This document shows positions 53,712 through 61,368 of a stretch of DNA of 64,000 nucleotides, in pieces. The notes under the pieces are model-generated. The model worked only from the letters and a program-made list of their open reading frames with translations. It searched no databases and was not told the DNA's origin. The translations under genes and the position numbers were made by a program. Within the stretch, counting starts at the first letter, position 1; the number at the start of each line of letters is the position of its first letter. Source of the stretch: Rhodobacteraceae bacterium LNNU 3342 (GTDB lineage: Bacteria; Pseudomonadota; Alphaproteobacteria; Rhodobacterales; Rhodobacteraceae); assembly GCA_008711135.1 (NCBI GenBank), contig VUAW01000011.1:1-64000 (forward strand), read 5' to 3'.

Positions 53712-53714
53712 GTG

Positions 53715-54434
53715 ATGAGGTTGGACAATCGGGTAGCAATTGTAACCGGAGCCAGTTCAGGCATCGGGCGATCCATTGCCCGCGGTTTCGCGGCGGAGGG
53801 AGCAAAGGTGATTGTCGCCGCGCGCACCGCAGGCAAGTTGAATGCACTGGTGGCTGAGATCGAGCGTGCAGGAGGGGCGGCGCATGCGGTGACCACTGAC
53901 GTCACCGATGAAAAGCAGGTACAGGCGCTCTTTGCAGCCTGCGTCGCCGCCTATGGCCCGCCGAACCTTCTTGTCAATAATGCTGGGATCGCGGATCACA
54001 CGCCCAGCCCTGACCTGTCGCTTGAACGGTGGCAGGAGGTGCTTACCATCAACCTCACCTCTGTGTTCCTGTGCAGCCGCGAGGCGCTGCGGCTGATGAC
54101 AGGAGGCGGGAGGATCATCAACATTGGTAGCATCTCGGCGAAGGTGCCGCGCCAGCATACAGCGGCCTATACCGCCAGCAAGTTCGGGCTCGAGGGACTG
54201 ACCCGCTCAATGGCGCTGGACGGGCGCGACCAGGGTGTGGCGGTGTCGATGCTGCATCCCGGCAGCACGACCAGCTCGCTGGTTCCCGGCATCACCGACC
54301 AGCCGCGCCCCGGATCAATGGACCCTGACGATGTGGCGCGTGTGGCGGTACTGATGGCCAGCCTGCCCAACGATGTGAACCTGTTCGAAAGCACAATACT
54401 GCCGATCTCCATGCCGTTTCTGGGACGCGGCTGA
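53715..54434 (+). CDS. SDR-family oxidoreductase (FabG-like)
   Basis: A 239-residue classical SDR. TGASSGIG (about 11-18) binds cofactor, NNAG is at about 85-88, the active serine is in NIGSISAKVP (about 136) and YTASK gives Y and K (about 149 and 153). The R after the second strand (AARTAGK) favours NADPH. GGGAGGG precedes the start; a GTG one codon earlier is equally possible. It lies 122 bases before the synthetase gene. It could act on an aromatic alcohol, aldehyde or 3-hydroxyacyl intermediate. Confidence 0.85.
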   Translation: MRLDNRVAIVTGASSGIGRSIARGFAAEGAKVIVAARTAGKLNALVAEIERAGGAAHAVTTDVTDEKQVQALFAACVAAYGPPNLLVNNAGIADHTPSPDLSLERWQEVLTINLTSVFLCSREALRLMTGGGRIINIGSISAKVPRQHTAAYTASKFGLEGLTRSMALDGRDQGVAVSMLHPGSTTSSLVPGITDQPRPGSMDPDDVARVAVLMASLPNDVNLFESTILPISMPFLGRG

Positions 54435-54556: not shown

Positions 54557-57500
54557 ATGACGCACCCTTCGGGTTCGTCGGCGTGCAGGGCCGCCGACGA
54601 TGGACACATGCTGGCCCGGCTCCTGCGGCCCCGTTCGATCGCCATTCTCGGGGCCTCGCCCGAACGGACCTCCGTCGGCGGCGGTGTTCTCGCAAACCTT
54701 GAGGATTTCGGCTATGACGGCGAGATCCACCTGGTCAGCCGCTCACGCGACAGCATCAACGGGCGCGCGTGCGTCAAGTCTGTCAATGACCTGCCGATGG
54801 GGATCGACGTCGCGGTGCTTATCGTGCCCTTTGCTGCCATTCGTGAATCCGTCGTTGCCTGTATCGGGCGGGGTGTGGGCGCCATCGTCATCTACACATC
54901 CGGCTTTGCCGAGGCCAGCGACGAAGGGCGACGTCAACAGGAAGAACTTGCGGACTTGTGCCGTGCGGCGGGCGTGGCGCTGCTGGGGCCTAACTGCATG
55001 GGCTATACCAACTACGTGGACGGCATCCCGCTGACCTTTGAGCCGGTCGAAAAGAAGGGCGCGGGCGAAGGCGCGCGCGTGGCCATCGTCGCGCAGAGCG
55101 GGGCAACAGCCGCCAACATCCGCTTTGCCATGCAGGCGCGTAAAATCCCGATTGCGCATGTTGTTGCTACCGGCAACGAGGCGCTGCTGAGCGCCGAGGA
55201 TTTCATTGACTACAGCATCAATGACCCGCAGATCACCGCCGTCGCCGTCTATGTGGAGCAGTTGCGCGATCCGGCGCGGTTTCTTGCCGTCGCCCGCGCC
55301 GCGCGTGCCAAGGGCAAACCCATCGTCATGTTGCATCCGGGGTCCAGTGAACGGGGGCGCAAGGCGGCGGAATCCCATACCGGCGCGCTGGCGGGGGACC
55401 ATGCCGTGATGCAGGCAGCCGCCCGCAACGAGGCCGTGGTGATCGTCGACACGCTGGACGAGATGTTTGACGTGCTGGCCATTCTCGTCCGCTTTCCGGT
55501 ACCGAAGCCGGGGCGGGCAGGAATCGTGACCAATTCGGGCGCAATTCGCGGGCTGGCCTTTGACTTCTGCGAGCATGTAGGGCTGGAACTTGCCCGGCTT
55601 TCACCTGAGGTAGAAGCCGAGCTGCGCGCGCAGGTGCCAGATTATGTGCACGTGGACAATCCGTTCGACGTGGGCACCACCGGCTTTTCCAATCCGGGGA
55701 TCTTCGGCACCTCGGCTGCGTCGATGCTGAAAGATCCCGAAGTCGGCATGATCCTGAGCGCCCATGCGGGTGGTTCTGCCCCCATGCAGGTCAAGAAGTC
55801 GGACTACCTGTTGCCGGTCTATAGGACGGCTGAAAAACCTATCATCTTTACCATCATCGGGGATGATTATCCGCTGGACCCGCAGTTCATGCGCGACGTG
55901 CGCGGCAGCGGGATTCCCTTCTTCCGCTCGCCTGAACGGGCGATCAGGGCGATGAAGGTGGTGTCTGATTACGCCGATGCCCTTGCCGCCGTGAAAGACC
56001 GGAGCACGGAGGCCGCCGCGCAGCTGGACCTCCCGTCTGGAGGTGCCTTGGCCGAACATGCCGGCAAGCGCATTCTGGTTGATCTGGGCATAAGGTGCCC
56101 GAAGGGTGAGCTGGTGCAGGATATAGAGGCTGCGCTGAACGTGGCCGCCCGGATCGGCTTTCCGGTTGTCATCAAGGCACAGGCGCCTGACCTGAGCCAC
56201 AAGAGCGACGCGGGCGCCGTTCTTATCAACTTGCGTGATGAGGCTGAACTGCGGGCGGGATGGGACCAGCTGCACGCCAATCTGGCCAAGGCTGCCCCCG
56301 GTCTGGCACTTGATGGCGTGCTGGTCGAGGAGATGGCGCCGCAGGGGTTGGAACTGGTGGTCGGCGCGCGCCGGGATCCCGGCTGGGGATCGGTGCTTCT
56401 TGTGGGGCTGGGCGGTGTGTGGATCGAGGTCCTGAAAGATTCTCGCCTGCTGCCTGCCGATATTAGCCATGCCCGCGCGATGTCCGAGATCCACAAGCTG
56501 AAGGCTGCCAGGCTGCTGGGACCCTTCCGTGGTCAGCCAGCGCGCGATGTGGCGGCAGTCGCGGATGTGGTGGTGAAGCTGGGGGCGCTGATGCGGGCAA
56601 ACCCGCAGATCGCCGAGGTGGATATCAACCCGCTTCTTGTTTTTGCCGAGGGGAAGGGGGTTGTGGCGCTGGATGCGCTGTTCGTCACGGAAGGAGGCCG
56701 CGCAGCGGTAGGGGGGGGGGGAATGAATCAAAGCTATGGCGAGCTGAACCTGTTCATTGACGGGGAGTGGCTGGGGGCAGGCGGACGCAACGCAGAGGAT
56801 GTGATCAACCCTGCGACAGGCGAGGCGATCGGTTCGCTACCTCATGCCACGCCCGCCGATCTGGACCGTGCTTCTGCCGCTGCGGCCCGCGCCTTCGCCG
56901 ACTGGCGCAAGGTCCCCGCTTATGATCGTGCCAAGATCCTTCGCAAGGCAGCCGACCTGCTGCGCGAACGCGCCCAGGGAATTGCCCGCCGGATGACGAT
57001 GGAGCAGGGCAAGCCACTGGCAGAGGCGCTGCAAGAGGTCTTCATCTCCGCGGACATCTTCGACTATACGGCTGATGAGGGACGCCGAGTGTATGGTCGC
57101 ATCGTGCCCTCTCGCGTTCCTGGGGTGCGCTGGATGGTCACCAAGGAACCCGTCGGTCCTGTCGCTGCCTTCACGCCGTGGAACTTCCCTGCCGTCATAC
57201 CGGCCCGCAAGATCTCGGCGGCGCTCGCGACGGGTTGCACCATGGTCATCAAGCCGTCCGAGGAAACGCCTGCCAGTGTGCTGGAACTGGCCCGCGCGCT
57301 GGACGACGCAGGGCTGCCGAAGGGTGTCCTGAACGTGGTCTATGGCGTGCCGGCGGAGGTTTCGGAACATCTGATCGCGGCAGAGGAAATTCGCAAGATC
57401 ACCTTTACCGGGTCTACCGCCGTGGGTCAGCATCTGGCGGTGCTTGCTGCGAAGGCTGGTGTGAAGCGCGCCACGATGGAATTGGGGGGCCATGCGCCGG

Positions 57501-58162
57501 TCCTCATTTTCGACGATGCCGATGTCGATGCGGCAATCGCGGTCATGGCCGGGGCCAAGTACCGCAATGCAGGGCAGGTCTGCGTGTCGCCCACCCGGTT
57601 CTTCGTGCAGGAAAGCGTGCACGACCGGTTCGTGGACGGCTTTACCAAGGCCGCCGCCGCAATCCGCACCGGCAACGGGCTCGAGGAGGGCGTTACCATG
57701 GGCCCGCTGGCGAATGACCGCCGCGTGGCGGCAATGGACCGGCTGATAGCCGATGCCGTAAGCCACGGGGCCGAGCTGCGGCAAGGTGGCGAGGCGCTTG
57801 GCAACCGCGGCAATTTCTTTGCGCCGACCGTTCTGGCCCATGTGCCTGATACGGCCCGGATCATGAACGAAGAGCCCTTTGGCCCCATCGCAGTGACCTC
57901 TTCCTTCGTGTCGTTTGACGAGGTGATCGCGCGGGCAAACCGTCTGCCCTTTGGCCTAGCCGCCTATGCCTTCACCAGTTCGGCCACCACGGCCGCCAAG
58001 CTGGCCGATGCGCTGGAAGCTGGGATGGTGGGCATCAACAACACCTTCATCAACATGCCCGAAACCCCCTTTGGCGGCGTCAAGCAAAGCGGCTATGGCA
58101 GCGAGGGCGGGATCGAGGGGATGGAAGCGTATCTGGTCACCAAGACCGTCAGCCAATCCTGA
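54557..58162 (+). CDS. Apparent fusion: FerA-like ADP-forming acyl-CoA synthetase + aldehyde dehydrogenase
   Basis: A 1201-residue open frame. Residues 1-722 are an NDP-forming acyl-CoA synthetase: CoA-binding domain (about 20-120), ligase domains with the phosphohistidine H274 in AESHTGALAGDH, and an ATP-grasp domain (about 500-715). FerA of Sphingobium, a feruloyl-CoA synthetase, has this build. Residues 723-1201 are a full-length aldehyde dehydrogenase with TPWNFP, catalytic E975 (MELGGHAP) and C1009 (GQVCVSPT). The join is a run of 11 G followed by AATGA: the ATG at 56723 would be a natural ALDH start, and with 10 G the synthetase would stop at the overlapping TGA. So these may be two coupled genes. 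GGAAGGA precedes the ATG at 54557. Likely roles: activate a hydroxycinnamate, and oxidise the benzaldehyde made by the lyase at 58174. Confidence 0.85.
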   Translation: MTHPSGSSACRAADDGHMLARLLRPRSIAILGASPERTSVGGGVLANLEDFGYDGEIHLVSRSRDSINGRACVKSVNDLPMGIDVAVLIVPFAAIRESVVACIGRGVGAIVIYTSGFAEASDEGRRQQEELADLCRAAGVALLGPNCMGYTNYVDGIPLTFEPVEKKGAGEGARVAIVAQSGATAANIRFAMQARKIPIAHVVATGNEALLSAEDFIDYSINDPQITAVAVYVEQLRDPARFLAVARAARAKGKPIVMLHPGSSERGRKAAESHTGALAGDHAVMQAAARNEAVVIVDTLDEMFDVLAILVRFPVPKPGRAGIVTNSGAIRGLAFDFCEHVGLELARLSPEVEAELRAQVPDYVHVDNPFDVGTTGFSNPGIFGTSAASMLKDPEVGMILSAHAGGSAPMQVKKSDYLLPVYRTAEKPIIFTIIGDDYPLDPQFMRDVRGSGIPFFRSPERAIRAMKVVSDYADALAAVKDRSTEAAAQLDLPSGGALAEHAGKRILVDLGIRCPKGELVQDIEAALNVAARIGFPVVIKAQAPDLSHKSDAGAVLINLRDEAELRAGWDQLHANLAKAAPGLALDGVLVEEMAPQGLELVVGARRDPGWGSVLLVGLGGVWIEVLKDSRLLPADISHARAMSEIHKLKAARLLGPFRGQPARDVAAVADVVVKLGALMRANPQIAEVDINPLLVFAEGKGVVALDALFVTEGGRAAVGGGGMNQSYGELNLFIDGEWLGAGGRNAEDVINPATGEAIGSLPHATPADLDRASAAAARAFADWRKVPAYDRAKILRKAADLLRERAQGIARRMTMEQGKPLAEALQEVFISADIFDYTADEGRRVYGRIVPSRVPGVRWMVTKEPVGPVAAFTPWNFPAVIPARKISAALATGCTMVIKPSEETPASVLELARALDDAGLPKGVLNVVYGVPAEVSEHLIAAEEIRKITFTGSTAVGQHLAVLAAKAGVKRATMELGGHAPVLIFDDADVDAAIAVMAGAKYRNAGQVCVSPTRFFVQESVHDRFVDGFTKAAAAIRTGNGLEEGVTMGPLANDRRVAAMDRLIADAVSHGAELRQGGEALGNRGNFFAPTVLAHVPDTARIMNEEPFGPIAVTSSFVSFDEVIARANRLPFGLAAYAFTSSATTAAKLADALEAGMVGINNTFINMPETPFGGVKQSGYGSEGGIEGMEAYLVTKTVSQS
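56711..56721 (+). repeat. Run of 11 G at synthetase-ALDH junction
   Basis: Eleven consecutive G at the domain border, directly followed by AATGA. The run doubles as a purine-rich ribosome site for the ATG at 56723. Its length sets whether one fused or two coupled proteins are made. Confidence 0.95.
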
Positions 58163-58173
58163 AAGGCCATCCC

Positions 58174-59016
58174 ATGACAACCACATCCCCCGAACCTTGG
58201 GGCGAAAACGTTCTGGTGGAATTCGAAGAGGGCATTGCTTGGGTCAAGCTGAACCGCCCCGAAAAGCGCAACGCCATGTCGGTCGGTCTGGCCGAGGAAA
58301 TGAACCGCGTGCTCGACGCGCTGGAAGTGGACGACCGCTGCGGTGTGATAGTCCTGACTGGTGTGGGCGAGGCTTTTTCAGCGGGGATGGATCTCAAGGA
58401 TTTCTTCCGGGCCACTGATGGGGTTTCTGATGTAGAGCGGATGCGGGCCTACCGGTCCACCCGCGCATGGCAGTGGCGGACGCTGATGCACTATGCCAAG
58501 CCGACGATCGCCATGGTCAACGGCTGGTGCTTTGGCGGCGCCTTCACACCGCTTATCTGCTGTGACCTGGCCATCGCCGATGAGAACGCCACCTTCGGCC
58601 TGTCGGAAATCAACTGGGGCGTGATCCCCGGCGGCGTGGTGTCCAAGGCGATCTCCACCCTGATGAACGACCGCAAGGCCATGTATTACGTCATGACCGG
58701 CGAGAAGTTCGACGGCAGGAAAGCCGAGCAGCTTGGCCTGATCAACGAGGCCGTCCCCGCCGACCAGCTTCGCGCGCGGACGGTGGAACTGGCAAAGGTC
58801 CTGCTGGCGAAAAACCCGACGGTGCTGCGGCAGGCGCGACTGGCGTATAAATACGCCCGCTACATGGACTGGGAACAGGCCGCTGAATACCTGACTGCCA
58901 AAGCCGACCAGACCACCTTCGTTGATCCCGAAAGGGGCCGCGAACAAGGCTTGAAGCAGTTCCTGGACGAGAAGACCTACCGCCCGGGCCACGGGACCTA
59001 TCAGCGCGAGGCCTGA
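58174..59016 (+). CDS. Hydroxycinnamoyl-CoA hydratase/lyase-like enzyme (paralogue 2)
   Basis: A 280-residue crotonase-fold enzyme. NGWCFGGAF (116-124) forms the oxyanion hole, E145 in FGLSEINWG matches the catalytic glutamate of feruloyl-CoA hydratase/lyase, and T125 takes the place of its S123. It would convert a 4-hydroxycinnamoyl-CoA to a 4-hydroxybenzaldehyde and acetyl-CoA. It lies 11 bases after the synthetase-ALDH frame, so the enzymes before and after this step are in one operon. AAAGG precedes the ATG. Its stop directly adjoins the ATG of the acyl-CoA dehydrogenase. Confidence 0.88.
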   Translation: MTTTSPEPWGENVLVEFEEGIAWVKLNRPEKRNAMSVGLAEEMNRVLDALEVDDRCGVIVLTGVGEAFSAGMDLKDFFRATDGVSDVERMRAYRSTRAWQWRTLMHYAKPTIAMVNGWCFGGAFTPLICCDLAIADENATFGLSEINWGVIPGGVVSKAISTLMNDRKAMYYVMTGEKFDGRKAEQLGLINEAVPADQLRARTVELAKVLLAKNPTVLRQARLAYKYARYMDWEQAAEYLTAKADQTTFVDPERGREQGLKQFLDEKTYRPGHGTYQREA

Positions 59017-61368
59017 ATGCGGCTGACCCTGACGGACGAACAGCTTGCCCTGCGCGACTCTGCGCGCCGAGTACTGGCAGAGACCTATGACTTCGGCCAG
59101 CGGCGGCGCATCGCGGCACAGGGCGGGTTCGATCCACAGGTCTGGGCGCGTTTCGCGGATCTGGGATGGCTCGCGCTGGCACTGCCGGAAGAACACGGGG
59201 GCCTGGGCTGCGGAGGAGCCGAGGTGGCAATCCTGGCCGAGGAGCTTGGCCGGGCGGCGGTACTCGAACGCTGGGTGGCCTGCGTGGTGCTGGCAGGCGG
59301 TGTCATCGCGGCGGTGGCAACGCCGGCACAGGCGTCGGCGCTGCTGCCGCCCGTGGCCGAGGGACGGTCCCGTCCGGCGTTGGCGCATTTCGAAGGAAGC
59401 GACAGTCTGATAACTGTTACCGCCAAGGCGCGCCCTGCGGGCGTGGATTGGCGGCTGACCGGCACCAAGCACCTGGTGCTTGATGGTCATGTGGCTGATC
59501 TTCTGCTGGTGACCGCACAGGCTGAGGATGGGCTGGGGGTCTTTATGGTGCGGCCCGATGTGCAGGGCGTGACCCTGTCCCCCTTCGATACGGTCGATGG
59601 TGGGCGTGCCGCCGATCTGGTGCTTGATGACGTTACAGCCGAACGGCTGGGCGAGGGCGACGCCACCGCCGCGCTGTTGGCCTGCATCGACCGGGCCAAT
59701 GCCGCGCAATGCGCCGATGCGCTAGGGGCCATGGGGGCGCTGTTGGATGCCACAACGGCTTATACCAAGGAGCGTGTGCAATTCCGCCAGCCGCTTGCGC
59801 AGTTTCAGGCGCTGCGGCACCGGATGGCGGAAATGGCCGTTAAGCTAGAGGAGGCCCGGGGTATGGCCCTGCTGGCCGCGCTGAGCGTCGATGGCGATGC
59901 CGACACTCGCGCGCGCGGCGTTTCCGGTGCGCGGGCCAAGATCGGGCTGTTGTCACGGCGACTGGCGCAAGAGGCGATCCAGCTTCATGGCGCCATGGGG
60001 TTTTCAGAGGAGATGCCCATCGGCACCTGGTTCAAGCGGCTTTACGCCTTTGAAAACCTCTGGGGCAGCACCGCGCTTCATCTGAGGCGCTACTCGGAAG
60101 TGATCACACGCCCCGAGGTTCTGCAATCCTCGTTGCTGCGCCCCGGCGCAGCGTCGGACGATGCCCTCAACCTGACCATGTCTGAGGAGGACGCTGCCTT
60201 TCAGGCCGAAGTGCGGGCGTTTCTCGACAGTGCCCTGAACGAAGAGACAAAGCGCGCGGAGCGGCTGAATCCCAGCTTTCTGGCGCATCCTGACATCGGC
60301 CTTCCATGGCAGGCACAGCTTCACCAAAAAGGGTGGGTCGCGCCTTCATGGCCCGCAGAATATGGCGGCACCGGCTGGACGCTGACGCAGCGCTACATCT
60401 TTGATCAGGAATGCGAACGCGCCGGAGAGCCGCATTTTCGTGGCGCCAGCCTGAAGATGATCGCCCCGGTCCTGATGCGCTTTGGAACTGAGGCGCAGAA
60501 GGCCTTTTACCTGCCGCGCATCCTGTCTGGAGAGGATCTCTGGGCGCAGGGGTATTCCGAACCGGGATCTGGATCTGACCTCGCATCATTAAGCACCAAG
60601 GCCGTGCGCGAGGGGGACCATTATATCATCAACGGGTCAAAGATCTGGACGACGCTGGGCCATCACGCCACGCGCATGTTCGCGCTGGTCCGCACGGACG
60701 ACACGGGGAAAAAGCAGCAGGGCATCACCTTTCTTCTGATCGACATGAAGGCCCCGGGTATCACCATCAAGCCGATCATCTCGATCTGCGGCACGCATGA
60801 ATTTAACCAGGTCTTCTTTGACAACGTGCGCGTGCCGGTGGCGGATCGCGTCGGCGAAGAGGGAGCAGGCTGGACCATCGCCAAGTACCTGTTGGAATAC
60901 GAACGTGGCGGGGCCTTTGCCGGGGGCTTGCTCCGGGCGCTTTACGTGCGGCTTTACCGCATGGCGGCGACGCCCGGGCCAGATGGGTCACGGGTGCTGG
61001 ATGACCCGCTGTTTCTGGCCCGCTTTGCCGAAATCGGAACCGACATCGACGCCAATGACATGCTGGAACTGGCCGCCATGTCCAGCGTGCAATCGGGTGG
61101 TAGCCCTGGCCTAGTGCCGTCGTCGGTCATGAAGATCGAGCGTAGCCGCATCCGGCAGGAGATCACCGAACTGGCCGCGATGAACCTGGGCCCGGGCGCC
61201 CTGCGTTGGTACCGCGAACGACTGCTCCACCACCTGCCCCAGCAGGACGCGGTGACCGAAGATCGCATGGTTGCCCCGGCGCTTTACTTCAACGCGCGGT
61301 CGCAAAGCATCTTTGGTGGCAGTAACGAGATTCAGCTGGAGATCATCGCGCGGGAACTGCTGGGCTAG
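59017..61368 (+). CDS. Double-length acyl-CoA dehydrogenase (two fused ACAD domains)
   Basis: A 783-residue flavoprotein with two acyl-CoA dehydrogenase units in tandem. The first (about 1-375) has LALPEEHGGLGCGGAEVAIL and ends with QEAIQLHGAMGFSEEMPIGTWFKR-type C-terminal marks. The second (about 390-783) has GYSEPGSGSDLASL, NGSKIWTTLGHHA and a final FGGSNEIQLEII. Such alpha-beta fusions are known (FadE34-like), and only one unit normally carries the active site. In this operon it would dehydrogenate a saturated phenylpropanoyl-CoA to the cinnamoyl-CoA used by the lyase. The start touches the previous stop (TGAATG). It overlaps the convergent oxidase by four bases. Confidence 0.87.
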   Translation: MRLTLTDEQLALRDSARRVLAETYDFGQRRRIAAQGGFDPQVWARFADLGWLALALPEEHGGLGCGGAEVAILAEELGRAAVLERWVACVVLAGGVIAAVATPAQASALLPPVAEGRSRPALAHFEGSDSLITVTAKARPAGVDWRLTGTKHLVLDGHVADLLLVTAQAEDGLGVFMVRPDVQGVTLSPFDTVDGGRAADLVLDDVTAERLGEGDATAALLACIDRANAAQCADALGAMGALLDATTAYTKERVQFRQPLAQFQALRHRMAEMAVKLEEARGMALLAALSVDGDADTRARGVSGARAKIGLLSRRLAQEAIQLHGAMGFSEEMPIGTWFKRLYAFENLWGSTALHLRRYSEVITRPEVLQSSLLRPGAASDDALNLTMSEEDAAFQAEVRAFLDSALNEETKRAERLNPSFLAHPDIGLPWQAQLHQKGWVAPSWPAEYGGTGWTLTQRYIFDQECERAGEPHFRGASLKMIAPVLMRFGTEAQKAFYLPRILSGEDLWAQGYSEPGSGSDLASLSTKAVREGDHYIINGSKIWTTLGHHATRMFALVRTDDTGKKQQGITFLLIDMKAPGITIKPIISICGTHEFNQVFFDNVRVPVADRVGEEGAGWTIAKYLLEYERGGAFAGGLLRALYVRLYRMAATPGPDGSRVLDDPLFLARFAEIGTDIDANDMLELAAMSSVQSGGSPGLVPSSVMKIERSRIRQEITELAAMNLGPGALRWYRERLLHHLPQQDAVTEDRMVAPALYFNARSQSIFGGSNEIQLEIIARELLG

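Follow-up and report, generated by a model that had tools for sequence, protein, structure and literature searches.

Does a run of eleven guanines near the end of an acyl-CoA synthetase gene join it to the aldehyde dehydrogenase gene that follows, or has a base been miscounted between two separate genes? The question is raised by contig VUAW01000011.1 of Rhodobacteraceae bacterium LNNU 3342, the first 64,000 nucleotides of which were analysed here and are referred to as the window. A single open frame on its forward strand, at 54557–58162 and of 1201 amino acids, begins with an ADP-forming acyl-CoA synthetase (ACS) and continues without a stop as an aldehyde dehydrogenase (ALDH). Our answer, which we hold with slightly better than even confidence, is that the junction is lineage-specific and slippage-prone, with a fused consensus genotype from which free ALDH would also be made, and with no demonstrated switch. 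Three elements make up the frame:

54557–56722, forward strand: ACS part, 722 codons as far as the ALDH ATG, with PF13380, PF13607 and PF13549 and 83% identity to Rhodobacter sp. NTK016B (locus L002)
56711–56721, forward strand: run of eleven G (G11), predicted to supply glycine codons, to set the frame and to be able to pair with the anti-Shine-Dalgarno sequence (from sequence, frame recomputation and pairing energy)
56723–58162, forward strand: ALDH part with its own conserved ATG, 479 amino acids, with PF00171 (E 1.5e-160) and 89% identity to L002; the start position is conserved among relatives

Both halves are of full length, PF00171 spanning ALDH residues 23–476, and the frame runs uninterrupted across the two, as it would in a true fusion. 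After a GAA codon at 56690–56692 the codon read-out is GGA GGC CGC GCA GCG GTA, followed by the G run, an A at 56722 and the ALDH ATG at 56723; the junction peptide region of the predicted fusion is VTEGGRAAVGGGGMNQSYGELNLF. The window contains GGGGGG 21 times, six of them within G11, against 84 expected from shuffles, and among the window's 17 homopolymers of at least six bases the second longest after G11 is of seven. The 3.78 Mb genome has 16 G runs of at least eight (twelve G8 and one each of G9, G10, G11 and G15), three of which reach at least ten: the junction run, the G10 and the G15. The last of these, at L083:2043-2057 on the minus strand, is the longest G run of the genome, and no long coding frame crosses it.

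When the frame was recomputed for runs of 7–14 G, lengths of 8, 11 or 14 gave the fusion; lengths of 7, 10 or 13 gave an ACS stop TGA overlapping the ALDH ATG as ATGA (722 amino acids at 10 G); and lengths of 9 or 12 gave a longer ACS (734 amino acids at 12 G) ending at the following codon:

56758–56760, forward strand: TGA, the ACS stop at 9 or 12 G, from frame recomputation

At 10 G the ACS would still be 11 residues longer than that of its relatives. The ATGA overlap that marks a coupled pair is therefore present at 7, 10 or 13 G only and not at the assembled 11 G; it is found in Wenxinia marina (L012; order Rhodobacterales). A reading made from the sequence alone (hereafter the sequence-only reading) had described a full ACS passing in frame into a full ALDH through G11-AATGA, with an ATGA overlap at 10 G and a stop at 56758–56760 at 12 G; the open 1201-residue frame, the exact count of 11 and the Pfam domains confirm the first statement, and recomputation finds the arithmetic correct. 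The run is a long repeat in which a change of one unit shifts the frame, as at a phase-variable locus, and to judge from its letters the junction resembles phase variation in form. Three run-length classes leading to three defined products would suit a selected switch between fused and separate enzymes. Some species are known for many long-G-run loci, unlike this genome, in which such runs are few, and we consider a selected switch very improbable.

Comparison with relatives bears on every reading of the locus. A scan of named genomes gave 119 loci, of which the best 80 were taken; junctions were examined in 18 (L002–L019), a search of L020–L029 gave no ALDH match, and L030–L081 were left out. 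To these were added L125–L127 from the genus of L002, where four of 18 genomes hold the ACS, one of them L002 itself, while L082 and L124 were excluded as repeats of L012 and L002, making 21 distinct relatives. ACS and ALDH are separate genes in all 21, with spacers of 182–218 nt in ten, 30–48 nt in six, 10–11 nt in two and 3 nt in two, and the ATGA overlap in one (L012). The relatives' ALDH starts at or near the position equivalent to ATG 56723, and two plasmid records annotate the ALDH as a gene of its own. The sequence-only reading had named two observations that together would speak against the join, namely accurate reads fixing the run at 10 G and separate genes in close relatives, and the search of related genomes has supplied the second. 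Nor is the tract itself kept, as it would be at a contingency locus: no run of at least ten G lies at the junction in these 21 relatives, the longest being of eight (L018) and the others of at most five, which is a further point against a selected switch.

The same junctions address whether joining might be general in this operon. The two genes share a frame and are separated by a single TGA in seven of the 21 (L009, L014, L016, L017, L019, L125 and L126), where leaky termination and read-through would yield a fusion. Seven one-stop junctions and eight same-frame junctions among 21 are at chance level (1 in 3), however, and neither spacer lengths nor residues are conserved between groups; same-frame read-through was accordingly rejected as a general mechanism, and we regard its probability as negligible. 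In L125 and L126, near position 1500, TGA-GCC alone lies between ACS and ALDH, and read-through there would give a frame of 1194 amino acids.

G runs elsewhere in the relatives followed no general rule in the 18 stretches looked at. Runs of at least ten are present in 44 of 61 relatives searched and are numerous in some. One G11, at L107:1566-1576, immediately follows a TAA stop and precedes an ATG by 7 bases, an arrangement like the junction described here, and a run of 47 G lies near position 1610 of L113, on the minus strand, in genome G005.

The junction has also lost a stop. In the five Rhodobacterales relatives the ACS ends in ...LFVTE (L125, L126 and L127), ...LIVTQ (L002) or ...LIVTEAP (L012), each followed at once by a stop. 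Two positions in the window bear on the fate of that stop:

56693–56695, forward strand: GGA, where L125, L126 and L127 have a TGA stop after ...VTE, from the relatives' junctions and the codon read-out
56709–56711, forward strand: TAG, out of frame with the ACS and perhaps left over from a stop such as L002 has (also TAG), in view of the alignment to L002

From the position of the lost stop onwards, ten codons (GGRAAVGGGG) that include the run precede the ALDH ATG. A single base change may have removed the stop, or else an insertion in front of the out-of-frame TAG. The G run itself occupies the place of the relatives' G-rich Shine-Dalgarno sequence, for example gcgggggaggaacc-ATG in L016. 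Because a stop upstream of the run has also been lost, the junction differs from those of its relatives by more than one base.

This matters for the main rival explanation, a consensus error in which the true run is of 10 G and the genes are separate and coupled through ATGA, as in W. marina. Long G runs are the likeliest sites of miscounting, the genes are separate in all 21 relatives and the exact overlap exists in L012. PMC3711429 distinguishes phase variation, translational coupling and singleton frame transitions, and describes the last as likely indel mutations or sequencing errors. Miscounted or broken copies do occur in databases: the ACS of Neorhizobium galegae VafX2 (L117:2404-4542) is annotated as three overlapping pieces, which suggests indels in the record, and that of L127 (L127:1272-3363) has a frame break near residue 95, as a pseudogene or through a read error, in a genome of few contigs, its junction being normal. 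A miscounted run would nevertheless leave the loss of the conserved stop after VTE unexplained, and the assembly appears reliable at comparable runs. The other long G runs of the same genome were used as a control, 13 open reading frames (ORFs) being scanned with Pfam and the G15 in L083 and L097 (contig start) being left out of that scan. Across these G8–G10 runs a conserved gene continues in frame in eight ORFs, five are undecided (L089, L090, L092, L093 and L096) and none is broken. In seven of the ORFs a domain extends over the run without a change of frame: L085 (G9), L086, in which the domain starts just six residues ahead of the run, L087, L088, L091, L094 and L095. In L084 (G10) the Pfam domain ends before the run, and a match to penicillin-binding protein 1A continues across it (query 605–726, the run lying near residue 679). 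The G9 run lies in frame in a carbon-nitrogen hydrolase. The ACS, the ALDH and three neighbouring genes (a short-chain dehydrogenase, a hydratase/lyase and a double acyl-CoA dehydrogenase) each give a single unbroken alignment with the L002 genome. A miscount is possible and is not favoured, because the G8–G10 runs are in frame wherever they could be judged; we think a consensus error rather unlikely, and a true consensus of 11 G seems to us likely, as a judgement and not a measurement. The sequence-only reading, which had posed a choice between a read error and a switch, is partly supported. It could not show the stop lost upstream of the run, nor the in-frame G8–G10 runs, which speak against a sloppy consensus.

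The run would also serve translation of the ALDH. As a search of the genome for small-subunit (SSU) rRNA found nothing, an anti-Shine-Dalgarno sequence was assumed; with this assumed 16S tail the predicted duplex energy at the ALDH start is -14.2 kcal/mol at 11 G and ranges from -11.1 to -14.3 kcal/mol over 7–13 G. On the same assumption the ALDH starts of L002 (-7.9 kcal/mol) and L012 (-9.5 kcal/mol) pair more weakly than G11, as do the window's own starts of the ACS (-9.5), lyase (-7.2) and short-chain dehydrogenase (-11.3 kcal/mol). A suitable spacing would always be possible, because any register of the run pairs; and since the run pairs at every length tried, no state should be without ALDH production. 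With ALDH supply independent of the count, a switch would alter the ACS tail only and not ALDH production. Little difference in output between states is therefore expected, the ALDH keeping its own start and a strong predicted Shine-Dalgarno sequence, which again argues against a selected switch. The poly-G is probably no purposeful switch but a ribosome-binding site that is slippery. A bolder proposal would give one G run three jobs, as Shine-Dalgarno sequence for the ALDH, as glycine linker and as a length that chooses between fused, ATGA-coupled and tail-extended ACS, such that a population would always break down phenolic acids with a mix of tethered and free enzymes, in shares that slippage can tune; we give it little credence.

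The history that we favour is as follows. In this lineage, an ordinary ACS–ALDH operon pair would have lost the stop between its two genes, and a G-rich Shine-Dalgarno sequence ahead of the ALDH would have grown into G11. At 11 G, ribosomes finishing the ACS would continue through those ten or so codons into the ALDH and produce the 1201-residue fusion, and the poly-G would also recruit ribosomes to the conserved ATG at 56723 and produce free ALDH. Occasional slippage by one base would give either a short-tailed ACS (10 G, ATGA) or one with a tail 12 residues longer (12 G). The change was probably close to neutral, because both activities would survive in every state.

The genes around the junction indicate what the joined enzymes may do:

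53712–54434, forward strand: short-chain dehydrogenase (SDR), upstream member of the cluster, PF00106 (E 2.8e-58), in the same place in L002 and most relatives
58174–59016, forward strand: p-hydroxycinnamoyl-CoA hydratase/lyase, NF006588, 415 bits against a curated cut-off of 276
59017–61368, forward strand: double acyl-CoA dehydrogenase, 783 amino acids, two acyl-CoA dehydrogenase halves in one frame, with two stretches each of PF00441, PF02771 and PF02770

With the lyase above its curated cut-off and a CoA ligase and an ALDH adjoining it, the cluster is by family assignment a hydroxycinnamate (ferulate-type) operon. The ACS has the three domains (CoA-binding, succinyl-CoA-ligase-like and ATP-grasp) of an FCS1-like ADP(NDP)-forming synthetase and is probably a hydroxycinnamoyl(feruloyl)-CoA synthetase; the motif SHTGALAG, a candidate site of the conserved phospho-histidine (His267 in FCS1), is invariant in eight aligned ACS rows. 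The ALDH matches models of the succinate-semialdehyde type with scores below those models' cut-offs, and its operon context makes it probably a vanillin/hydroxybenzaldehyde dehydrogenase. Just past the window, on the opposite strand (G000:C2:65692-67107), is another ALDH of this group with 55% identity. The lyase assignment supports the proposal, first made from the sequence, that the lyase at 58174 catalyses a step between those of the ACS and the ALDH; in the pathway order ACS, lyase, ALDH the joined enzymes would be steps 1 and 3.

These assignments bear on the further possibility of a stable, selected bifunctional enzyme, for instance one that keeps ACS and ALDH in one complex with the lyase. 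The linker is glycine-rich, the assembled count keeps the frame, and the double acyl-CoA dehydrogenase of the same operon is stable across Rhodobacterales relatives, Neorhizobium having two genes. Yet steps 1 and 3 are not consecutive, hence direct transfer is not expected, a slippery run is a poor means of fixing a fusion, and none of the 21 relatives shares it; we consider a selected fusion quite improbable. The double acyl-CoA dehydrogenase itself has full-length, single-frame counterparts in L121 (the genome of L002) and L122 (Wenxinia), and its match spans the whole length in L128–L130; Neorhizobium petrolearium has two genes in place of the 783-residue protein.

Wider searches yielded no second example. 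Among 394 genomes of the family sample the ACS was matched in two (E <= 1e-200), with a frame of 725 amino acids and no second fusion, and among 385 genomes of the class sample in four (E <= 1e-150), with frames of 732, 750 and 809 amino acids and again no second fusion. The ALDH was found at 53 places in 39 of those 385 genomes (E <= 1e-170), and only the window's lies in a frame of at least 1000 amino acids. Open frames of 1194 amino acids around the ACS in G776 and G786 were rejected as fusions, each being two same-frame genes with one TGA between, as was the next longest ALDH frame (957 amino acids, G425), in which Pfam finds an ALDH domain only. In the literature listings examined, no title or abstract opening names an ACS–ALDH fusion.

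Several of these results weigh against the history favoured here. The fusion is common to none of the 21 relatives, where a true fusion might be shared, and the 52 other ALDH places of the class sample include no open frame of at least 1000 amino acids. The count of 11 comes from one draft assembly of 62 contigs, in which no SSU rRNA was detected, and counting 11 G is harder than counting 10. The pairing energies depend on an assumed alphaproteobacterial 16S tail. Finally, the predicted structure of the fusion (amino acids 2–1201, eight rows) is poor, with a mean pLDDT of 52.4 and a pTM of 0.42, and we draw no support from it.

What the locus would mean depends on which account holds. If the fusion is made, it would be an ADP-forming ACS tethered to an ALDH, an arrangement that none of the 21 junctions and none of the 52 further ALDH places shows, and it would illustrate simply, in nature, how a fusion may originate through a lost stop and a grown Shine-Dalgarno sequence. 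If the run varies, poly-G would here decide between one protein and two in a metabolic setting outside pathogens; and if the run was miscounted, it is a warning for annotation.

Known systems resemble the junction in part. The operons of L002, L012 and L116 (Neorhizobium) have the same ACS–ALDH–lyase order at 69–89% protein identity, but carry two separate genes and no junction run of at least ten G. FCS1 from a soil metagenome, a tested feruloyl-CoA synthetase of the ADP-forming type, has the same PF13380, PF13607 and PF13549 as the ACS part, a likeness by domains and not by direct sequence comparison; unlike the fusion it is a separate enzyme, with no ALDH partner mentioned in the available part of the text (PMC6388921). 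Cytosolic 10-formyltetrahydrofolate dehydrogenase (7rlu) likewise has a C-terminal ALDH domain in a longer chain (match 423–899), although its N-terminal part is unrelated and it is an established enzyme. In 9it0 and 9isq ('Protein acetyltransferase' in the PDB) an ADP-forming synthetase-like part is followed by more residues (match 6–690 of 886 in 9it0), but that C-terminal part is no ALDH, being an acetyltransferase by the depositors' name. By analogy with 7rlu and 9it0, joins at either enzyme's end are structurally possible in principle. A parallel exists in Helicobacter canadensis, for which PMC2823697 reports eight genes that carry poly-G tracts late in their sequence; HCAN_0660 among them could merge with the next gene, its tract varying from 11 to 16 in reads, a precedent that favours a selected switch. 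The idea that poly-G decides whether one fused protein or two separate ones are made, a choice which that paper terms 'perhaps unprecedented', is thus already published. As at the junction described here, the poly-G of HCAN_0660/HCAN_0661 lies near the 3' end of a gene and its length would decide merging; there, however, both proteins are hypothetical, the partner is of 82 amino acids and reads showed the length to vary, whereas here both partners are full-length known enzymes and the run is known from one assembly.

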